A stretch of 64,000 bases of DNA, taken from assembly GCA_018816865.1 (NCBI GenBank), contig JAHIUW010000036.1:62001-126000 (forward strand). The letters are read 5' to 3'. The stretch's first letter is position 1. Each line of letters begins with the position of its first letter. This DNA is from Pseudomonadota bacterium. GTDB lineage: Bacteria > Desulfobacterota > Desulfovibrionia > Desulfovibrionales > Desulfovibrionaceae. The notes beneath the pieces were generated by a model. It made no database searches. It had not been told where the DNA came from and was given only the letters and a program-made list of their open reading frames with translations. Below, in pieces: positions 4,825 to 11,758 of this stretch. The translations under genes and the position numbers were made by a program.

Positions 4825-4860
4825 GGCCCCGCGCAGCAACACGATGCGCGGGGCCTTTAT
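4825..4860 (+). terminator. Rho-independent terminator after the diguanylate cyclase gene
   Basis: An 11-bp perfect GC-rich stem (GGCCCCGCGCA at 4825-4835, TGCGCGGGGCC at 4845-4855) with a 9-nt loop is followed by TTTAT. It lies about 135 bases past the cyclase stop and isolates flgE1 from it. The rest of the 342-base gap 4691-5032 holds the flgE promoter and leader; no gene is seen in it. Confidence 0.8.
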
Positions 4861-4952
4861 TATCGGAAAAAAAACCACATCCCTCGCGCAGATTCCGCGC
4901 GCATCCCCCCGCCAAGTCCTTCCACCCCAAGACGCACCCTCCCGTCCAGCCC

Positions 4953-4968
4953 TGGCACAGTCCTTGCG
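4953..4968 (+). promoter_or_regulatory. Sigma-54 promoter of flgE (first copy)
   Basis: TGGCAC-N5-TTGCG: the -24 GG (4954-4955) and -12 GC (4966-4967) are separated by the required 10 bases. The expected start of transcription is near 4979, leaving a leader of about 54 nt before the ATG at 5033. Hook genes are classic sigma-54 (RpoN) class genes in polar flagella. Transcription needs an NtrC-family activator; the flagellar one is not identified in this window. Confidence 0.85.
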
Positions 4969-5032
4969 AACCATCCATGAGACGGGAATATTTTTCCGTC
5001 GGTTGTGTGTGTATCGGCTGAAGGAGATCGGT

Positions 5033-6559
5033 ATGAGCTTTCAATCACTGTACGTCGGGACCACGGGAATGGTGTCCCACGGCACGCGGATGCAGAACAT
5101 CGGCAACAACATCGCCAATGTGAGCACCGTGGGCTACAAGAGCACCAACACCCATTTTCAGACGCTGATCAGTGACTCCCTGGCTTCGGGAAACTCGGGG
5201 GCGACCTCGGGCCCGTCCCAGGTCGGACTGGGCGTCGGACTGGGCGCCATCCTCACTGATTTCAGGACGGGTGCCATGATCGGTGGCAGCGACATCACGG
5301 ACCTGGGGATTTCCGGGAAGGGCTTCTTCCGGGTGGTCGGCCCGGACAACAACCTGACCAACTACACCCGGGCCGGGAACTTCCGCTTCGACAATTCGGG
5401 ATTCCTGGTCGACCCAAGCGGCTCGCGCCTGCAGGGCCAGGAGATCACGGACGGAGTCAACGGCGCCACCACGGACATCCAGCTGCGCGGCGACGCCAAC
5501 GGGCAATTCAGCGTGGCCCCGTCGGCCACAACGGAGGTGTCCTTCATCTCCAACATCGGCCTGGAACACAGCAAGGCCTCCAGCACGGCCAACCCCATGT
5601 TCTCCATGTTCGAGAACTGGAACGGCGCGGCCACCCCGCCGCTGGGCTCGGGACTCTACGGGTTCCAGAGCGCCATCAAGGTCTACGATGAAAGTGGCAC
5701 CCAACAGACCCTGAACGTCTATTTCGACAAGGCCGACGTGAGCAATGCAGGAAGCAGGGACTATTTCGAGTTCATGGTGACCATGAATCCGGCCAACGAC
5801 GCTCGCGCAGGCATCACCGGGACCTCCGGGGCAGGCGTGTTGATGACCGGCGTCATGACCTTCGACTCCACAGGCCAGATGGTGGACCTGGCGGCCTTCA
5901 GCTATGGCGGGGCCGGAGATACCAAGGTCCTCTCCAACTGGACACCCACGTCCTTCACGGCCAACGGCTACCCACAGCTTTCGGCATCCTTTGCCGACAG
6001 CGGGGACAGCAGCACCATCGGCATCAATTTCGGCCTCTCGGCCAGCGCCTACAGCGCAGGCGGAGCCTCCAATGCCGGGGCCGTGGGCACCGTAGCGGGC
6101 AACCTGCCGTCCATGGCCTCCGCCACCAGAAACGCCCTGACGACCACGGCCTTCCTGGGCACCTCGGCCGTGTCCTTCCAATCCCAGGACGGATACGCCG
6201 AAGGCTTCCTGGTGAACCTCGACGTGGACAAGGACGGCATCTTGCTGGGCAAATACTCCAACGGCATCCAGCAGGAACTCTACCAGATCACCCTGTACAA
6301 CTTCCCGGGGGAATTCGGCCTGCGACGCGAGGGGGGCAACCACTTCTCGGAGACCATGGGCTCGGGGGCCGCAGTGGAGGGTTTTGCCGGTCAGGACAAT
6401 TTCGGAGGCATCAACTCCAACTCCCTGGAACAGTCCAACGTCGACATCGCCGAGCAATTTGTAAAAATGATCATCACCGAGCGCGGCTTCCAGGCCAACT
6501 CCAAGATCATCACCACCGCCGACGAGATCATCAAGAACGCCATCCAGATGAAGAGATAA
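5033..6559 (+). CDS. flgE: Flagellar hook protein FlgE, copy 1
   Basis: 508 residues. The N-terminal rod/hook motif (SLYVGTTGMVSHGTRMQ, then NNIANVSTVGYKS) and the C-terminal coiled segment with NSLEQSNVDIAEQFVKMI and ERGFQANSKII mark a FlgE-type axial protein; the length and large Gly/Ser/Thr-rich centre fit hook rather than rod proteins. It polymerises outside the cell to form the universal joint. The start is the ATG at 5033 behind AAGGAG; upstream in-frame codons give only an unlikely extension. It is monocistronic, with its own sigma-54 promoter and terminator. A second, clearly related flgE lies at 12565-14181 in the hook operon, so this is a paralogue whose stage or role is open. Confidence 0.94.
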   Translation: MSFQSLYVGTTGMVSHGTRMQNIGNNIANVSTVGYKSTNTHFQTLISDSLASGNSGATSGPSQVGLGVGLGAILTDFRTGAMIGGSDITDLGISGKGFFRVVGPDNNLTNYTRAGNFRFDNSGFLVDPSGSRLQGQEITDGVNGATTDIQLRGDANGQFSVAPSATTEVSFISNIGLEHSKASSTANPMFSMFENWNGAATPPLGSGLYGFQSAIKVYDESGTQQTLNVYFDKADVSNAGSRDYFEFMVTMNPANDARAGITGTSGAGVLMTGVMTFDSTGQMVDLAAFSYGGAGDTKVLSNWTPTSFTANGYPQLSASFADSGDSSTIGINFGLSASAYSAGGASNAGAVGTVAGNLPSMASATRNALTTTAFLGTSAVSFQSQDGYAEGFLVNLDVDKDGILLGKYSNGIQQELYQITLYNFPGEFGLRREGGNHFSETMGSGAAVEGFAGQDNFGGINSNSLEQSNVDIAEQFVKMIITERGFQANSKIITTADEIIKNAIQMKR

Positions 6560-11705: not shown

Positions 11706-11708
11706 ATC

Positions 11709-11728
11709 TCAAAACCTCCTTGTTTTGA
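11709..11728 (-). promoter_or_regulatory. Leader hairpin with the flagellin Shine-Dalgarno in its loop (possible CsrA site)
   Basis: On the coding strand TCAAAAC and GTTTTGA form a perfect 7-bp inverted repeat whose 6-nt loop is AAGGAG, the Shine-Dalgarno itself, 3-4 bases before the ATG. A-N-GGA displayed in a hairpin loop is the known recognition shape of CsrA, and flagellin mRNAs of Bacillus (hag) and Campylobacter (flaA) are known CsrA targets antagonised by FliW. The structure is seen; CsrA control here is inferred. Neither csrA nor fliW is in the window. Confidence 0.6.
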
Positions 11729-11743
11729 CTTACCTTTCCCTAA

Positions 11744-11758
11744 GCAATCACAGTGCCA
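11744..11758 (-). promoter_or_regulatory. Sigma-54 promoter of the flagellin gene
   Basis: On the minus strand TGGCAC-TGTGA-TTGC, a perfect match to the -24/-12 consensus with GG and GC 10 bases apart. The expected transcription start is near 11732, giving a short leader (about 27 nt) that consists almost wholly of the SD hairpin. Confidence 0.9.

Follow-up and report, generated by a model that had tools for sequence, protein, structure and literature searches.

A Shine-Dalgarno hairpin at the start of a Desulfovibrionaceae flagellin gene is a predicted CsrA-binding site

The leader of a flagellin gene from a bacterium of the family Desulfovibrionaceae displays its Shine-Dalgarno (SD) sequence in the loop of a hairpin directly before the start codon, which raises the question of whether this gene is under translational control by CsrA and its antagonist FliW. 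Here we report an analysis of the locus, which lies in a window of 64,000 nucleotides (the whole stretch of DNA that was analysed), together with a survey of the genome (42 contigs, 3.64 Mb, 99.97% complete) and of flagellin leaders from relatives. With a probability of roughly 85%, we read the hairpin as the CsrA-binding site on the SD in a predicted FliW-CsrA-flagellin feedback loop. The coordinates of the features are given in Table 1.

Table 1. Features of the flagellin locus, numbered from the first nucleotide of the window
Feature	Position	Strand	Remark
SD-presenting hairpin, 7-bp stem and AAGGAG hexaloop	11709..11728	-	Predicted CsrA site like hag BS2 and flaA SL2
5' stem arm UCAAAAC	11722..11728	-	Inner AAC falls in the segment that relatives conserve in kind
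Loop AAGGAG (A-N-GGA-N)	11716..11721	-	Doubles as the SD core
3' stem arm GUUUUGA	11709..11715	-	First G is part of the SD AAGGAGG
Spacer GAT after the 3' arm, then ATG	ATG 11705-11703	-	
Flagellin gene, 305 aa	10788..11705	-	Flagellin_N and Flagellin_C; seven flagellins were detected genome-wide
Sigma-54 type -24/-12 promoter TGGCAC-N5-TTGC	11744..11758	-	Exact match to the consensus
Predicted 5' UTR, about 27 nt	11706..11732	-	Transcription start inferred from the promoter

Control of flagellin by FliW and CsrA is known from Bacillus and Campylobacter. In Bacillus subtilis, CsrA blocks the SD of the flagellin gene hag and FliW releases it (PMC7652899); the hag leader carries two CsrA sites, BS1 and BS2, one of them on the SD, and a pair of CsrA sites has been predicted for fliC of Clostridioides difficile (PMC8523840). 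In Campylobacter jejuni, the leader of flaA, a gene under CsrA-FliW control, is 45 nt long and presents ANGGA in hairpin loops, and its second hairpin covers the ribosome site; other members of Campylobacter show compensatory changes (Dugar et al. 2016; PMC4894983). For Geobacter, direct CsrA targets are described as still awaiting validation (PMC13407953). Among the open-licence papers listed for Desulfovibrio and its relatives in combination with CsrA, FliW or flagellin, there was no report of a flagellin-leader CsrA hairpin in this group, and the accessible parts of PMC12316311 and PMC11124144 hold no description of such a leader. What is new here is the present leader as a predicted member of the system.

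The minus strand reads TCAAAAC-AAGGAG-GTTTTGA from 11728 to 11709, and the flagellin ATG begins 3 nt downstream; the preliminary description, which had placed the whole SD in a 6-nt loop on a perfect 7-bp stem right before the ATG, was correct in sequence, strand and coordinates. The hairpin takes up 20 nt of the predicted leader, and a run of seven pairs had a probability of 0.0018 when the loop was fixed and the remaining leader was shuffled. Both the 20-mer (-4.9 kcal/mol, z -3.1; 6 of 200 shuffles equally good) and a 30-nt piece (-5.8, z -3.3; 1 of 200 shuffles equally good) folded as drawn, with the AAGGAG core entirely unpaired. A 54-nt piece that included 27 nt of coding sequence retained the hairpin at an energy not better than that of shuffles (z -0.1), and in the minimum-energy fold of an 87-nt piece with 60 nt of coding sequence the 3' arm pairs with coding bases and no longer with the 5' arm (z -0.6). 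These two longer pieces count against the hairpin. The loop places A-N-GGA within a hexaloop, as in a CsrA hairpin. Among 270 genes called by a stricter gene rule, the window flagellin (start 11705, minus strand) is the only one with a seven-pair hexaloop hairpin at its SD.

The sigma-54 promoter claimed for the gene was borne out by an exact consensus match, TGGCAC-N5-TTGC, at 11758-11744 of the minus strand. With one mismatch allowed, the pattern had 13 matches in the window against 6.6 expected by chance, and the promoter is convincing because of its position before a flagellin gene, the pattern itself being frequent by chance. Transcription would start near 11732 and yield a leader of about 27 nt, within which no second, upstream ANGGA site was found. 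A FlaG gene (PF03646; 12046-12423, plus strand) is divergent from the flagellin gene. A second exact TGGCAC-N5-TTGC (4953-4967, plus strand) lies a short way upstream of an apparent second flagellar hook gene, judged by eye, inside the open reading frame 4844-6559.

The CsrA reading had been made dependent on the presence of csrA in the genome, and both partner genes are there. A single csrA (PF02599, 5e-22) and a single fliW (PF02623, 9e-37) are neighbours on contig C5, where fliW overlaps the end of csrA; they are preceded by a flagellin-domain gene that we take to be flgL. The predicted CsrA (77 aa) has R44, V51, N55 and a C-terminal extension and matches chain D of the FliW-CsrA complex 5dmb (1.6e-14), and FliW matches chain A of the same complex (1.2e-20). 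R44 is critical for RNA binding, and V51 and N55 are required for the binding of FliW (PMC7829508). The genome holds two features expected of a FliW-CsrA-flagellin system, an extended CsrA with the FliW-contact residues and a FliW. Such a system would lack an RNA antagonist of CsrB type; the best match to the CsrB model RF00018, the only such model tried on the genome, scored 21.3 bits against a gathering score of 71 and was not accepted as an RNA antagonist, being far below the threshold; a search of the window with Rfam at gathering thresholds gave zero matches.

Flagellin leaders were collected from the same genome, from 80 named records (the best 80 of 531, among which the nearest are Desulfovibrionaceae), and from genomes of the order, where they were drawn from part of the matches listed, and of other relatives. 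Starts were set by a sequence rule, by which a few may be wrong. The collection comprised 201 distinct leaders, with L166 left unplaced; seven without a GGA near the start were excluded, and 194 entered the stem counts. At least three pairs enclose the SD hexaloop in 127 of these 194 (at least four in 71, at least five in 41 and at least seven in 11), versus 15 of 242 control SDs under a simple ORF rule, which sometimes takes shadow ORFs and skipped the window's own flagellin. A stricter rule based on codon positions gave 16 of 269 non-flagellin SDs, and none with at least seven pairs, after removal of the one flagellin it had caught (a run of seven). With the loop restricted to AAGGAG, at least three pairs were found in 92 of 140 flagellin leaders and in 1 of 53 controls.

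When the 3' arms were permuted among 77 dereplicated leaders, the mean run fell from the observed 2.38 to 1.38 ± 0.11, and the highest mean in 5000 permutations was 1.78. The share of these leaders with at least three pairs was 0.48 in the hexaloop register, no more than 0.04 after shifts of the 3' arm by +1 to +4, and 0.12 after a shift of -2. On the side of a 5-nt loop the register is not sharply defined: a shift of -1 still gives 0.38, in part since one G is followed by another and G-U pairs were allowed. Six short leaders of genus code g3 (L094, L105, L117, L161, L164 and L193) carry CACC-AGGA-GGTG, a different hairpin at the same site in which the SD is partly paired.

The conservation signal lies in the inner three pairs. 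Among the 77 leaders, T-A and A-T occupy pair 2 in 24 and 21 cases and pair 3 in 23 and 16, respectively, and the inner pairs switch sides jointly between leaders (TTC/GAA, AAC/GTT). Disjoint contrasts on the best tree of 183 flagellin N-termini were scored as compensated, unchanged or wrong way, which gave 17, 6 and 0 of 23 for pair 2, 11, 6 and 1 of 18 for pair 3, and 6, 6 and 1 of 13 for pair 5; pair 4 (4, 13 and 3 of 20) showed no compensation. These best-tree counts are the looser ones, and the supported branches alone offer 1-2 contrasts, too few to decide. Pairing at outer pairs 4-6 within a class was 103 of 249 versus 91.9 ± 6.3 after permutation, little excess. The 20-mer recurs unchanged in G061 (L123), which is a second species of the genus, and in L012, with different bases shortly upstream, and pairs 4-7 have little or no conservation beyond these closest relatives. 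The covariation that had been proposed as a check is thus present at the inner three pairs on the best tree; it is absent among the closest relatives G061 and L012, whose stems are the same, and the outer pairs are not conserved further away.

Leaders were also divided by promoter with a loose sigma-54 rule that makes some wrong assignments (e.g. L100 and L119), and on this division the mean run was 3.41 versus 2.42 ± 0.10 permuted in 76 distinct leaders without a sigma-54 site, 2.03 versus 1.30 ± 0.13 in 39 short sigma-54 leaders, and 2.52 versus 2.53 in 31 long ones, which show no covariation because their arms hardly vary. Only 13 of the 39 short leaders (33 nt or less) have at least three pairs. 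The window gene belongs to this weaker class and has one of its strongest hairpins.

The loop itself bears a CsrA-like signature. Where at least three pairs are present, 86 of 90 distinct elements have A at position 1 of the loop and 70 of 90 have it at position 2; where fewer than three are present, the counts are 43 and 50 of 56, and in the controls they are 91 and 89 of 242 and 94 and 109 of 269. In addition, 81 of the 194 flagellin leaders have an upstream ANGGA hairpin (at least three pairs, 14-60 nt away), versus 4 of 242 controls, and in 45 of the 81 the distance from GGA to GGA is 19-20. When GGA alone was searched for at 17-24 nt upstream, at least three pairs were found in 41 of 76 distinct candidates (controls, 0 of 242 and 1 of 269); position 1 was A in 41 of these 41 hairpins, and the inner stem was GGC/GCC in 27. 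Sigma-54 leaders with two sites are usually 34-45 nt long.

The genes and the hairpin also occur together. Of 61 genomes of the order, 57 have flagellin, 56 have csrA and the same 56 have fliW; four lack all three and one (G008) has flagellin only (Fisher p 1e-5). The SD of this last genome has no hexaloop stem; it does allow a stem of 3 bp around a 7-nt loop, and the genome was therefore not used as evidence. In 118 genomes of the phylum, csrA was found in 58, of which 56 have fliW, a near-constant pairing which suggests that control of flagellin is a main task of CsrA in the sampled phylum. Outside the order, we sampled 43 of the 48 genomes that have both flagellin and fliW, and 10 of the 22 that have flagellin but lack fliW; the 12 excluded fliW-less genomes had weak Flagellin_N matches only. 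The hairpin (at least three pairs) was present in 37 of 55 leaders from the 43 genomes with csrA and fliW and in 1 of 11 leaders from the 10 genomes without them (Fisher p 0.0005). Two families without csrA and fliW, f27 and f35, have strong flagellin SDs and at least three pairs in 0 of 8 leaders; they represent two lineages, and common descent could contribute to this count in place of CsrA loss. The genome with the lone exception (G114) and one other (G166) carry genus codes that also occur among the csrA/fliW-positive genomes, so that the two genes may be missing only from their assemblies.

A hairpin at this site could serve other purposes. Flagellin is produced in large amounts, and a loop that leaves the whole AAGGAG core unpaired might simply keep the ribosome site single-stranded and raise the translation of an abundant protein without CsrA. 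We consider this improbable, since it does not predict that A is kept at loop position 1 while position 2 varies in stemmed elements, nor the second hairpin upstream, and since the same SD on other genes hardly ever has a stem and the strong flagellin SDs of families f27 and f35 have none of at least three pairs. A hairpin near the 5' end could also shield a short, abundant mRNA from decay that depends on that end, as in ompA of Escherichia coli. The stem begins about 4 nt past the inferred transcription start, and such a role could explain why it has seven pairs where three to four are common. As the sole explanation this is slightly less probable still: longer two-site sigma-54 leaders place the SD hairpin further from the predicted 5' end, and a link with csrA and fliW is not predicted. 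Stabilisation is not exclusive of CsrA control and may add to it.

The perfect 7-bp dyad just downstream of the promoter might instead be the operator of a transcription factor and have no role as RNA. This was rejected as very improbable because the arm sequences turn over: the arms change and the pairing stays (ATAATTC/GAATTAT, AATATTC/GAATATT, CTTTC/GAAAG, TCAAAAC/GTTTTGA), with the repeat centred on the SD throughout, and a protein that reads DNA bases would hardly tolerate such turnover. The reading as a site of translational control by CsrA and FliW, which the preliminary description had put forward, is supported by the presence of both genes, by the covariation of the inner stem and by the near-absence of the hairpin from those sampled flagellated genomes where the two genes are lacking.

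Homology and the motif suggest that CsrA would dock on the loop A-A-GGA-G, which a C-G pair closes, and, once docked, would cover the ribosome site and repress translation of flagellin. If the system acts in the direction seen in its homologues, export of flagellin would leave FliW free to bind CsrA beside the RNA pocket and lift repression, and flagellin that backs up would hold FliW, so that CsrA is freed and translation stops.

The locus resembles flaA of C. jejuni in its short leader, in an ANGGA hairpin loop over the ribosome site and in FliW as the partner of CsrA; flaA, however, carries a pair of hairpins and a promoter of sigma-28 type, whereas the window gene combines a sigma-54 type promoter with a leader of about 27 nt that contains a single 7-bp hairpin. 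The two-hairpin form was found on other flagellins of the same genome and of relatives. The hag leader differs in its greater length and second site and belongs to a different phylum, and its promoter class is not that of the window gene; CsrA/FliW studies of BS1 and BS2 in that leader are reportedly due to Yakhnin in 2007 and Mukherjee in 2011. Proven CsrA targets commonly have a second site, which is not strictly required; the 27-nt leader has a single site. The high-affinity hairpin known from SELEX and RsmE (RUACARGGAUGU) has an ANGGAN hexaloop and mostly four or fewer contiguous pairs (PMC7652899). The window hairpin shares the hexaloop, as A-A-GGA-G, and the C-G closing pair, and its ACAAGGAGGU matches 9 of 10 bases of ACARGGAUGU; it differs in having seven pairs and in the G that follows GGA, where the SELEX consensus has U.

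All seven flagellins of the genome have a best partner in the second species, G061. In five, the SD contains GGA and is enclosed by 3 to 7 pairs (judged by eye for one G061 partner, L157), flagellin C9:264294 has a diverged leader without a site, and flagellin C3:10954 has the SD AAAGGGGGTG, without GGA, in both species, so that this gene may have escaped CsrA with its ribosome site kept. The SD regions of its leader (L004, minus strand) and of L153 in G061 are identical (AAAGGGGGTGACC, no GGA). Two-site, single 7-bp hairpin and site-less leaders are each preserved between the two species. It is conceivable, if rather doubtful, that these leader types tune the seven flagellins by graded CsrA control, in which case the single-hairpin leader of 27 nt would be, to our knowledge, the smallest CsrA switch.

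The FliW-CsrA checkpoint is proven in Bacillus and Campylobacter, and the sequence evidence extends it to the flagellins of this order and, from a smaller sample, to the phylum, including genes behind promoters of sigma-54 type. One genome offers short, concrete targets in its one-site, two-site and GGA-less leaders. If control is graded among them, FliW and CsrA would set which flagellins come first or most, beyond the total amount.
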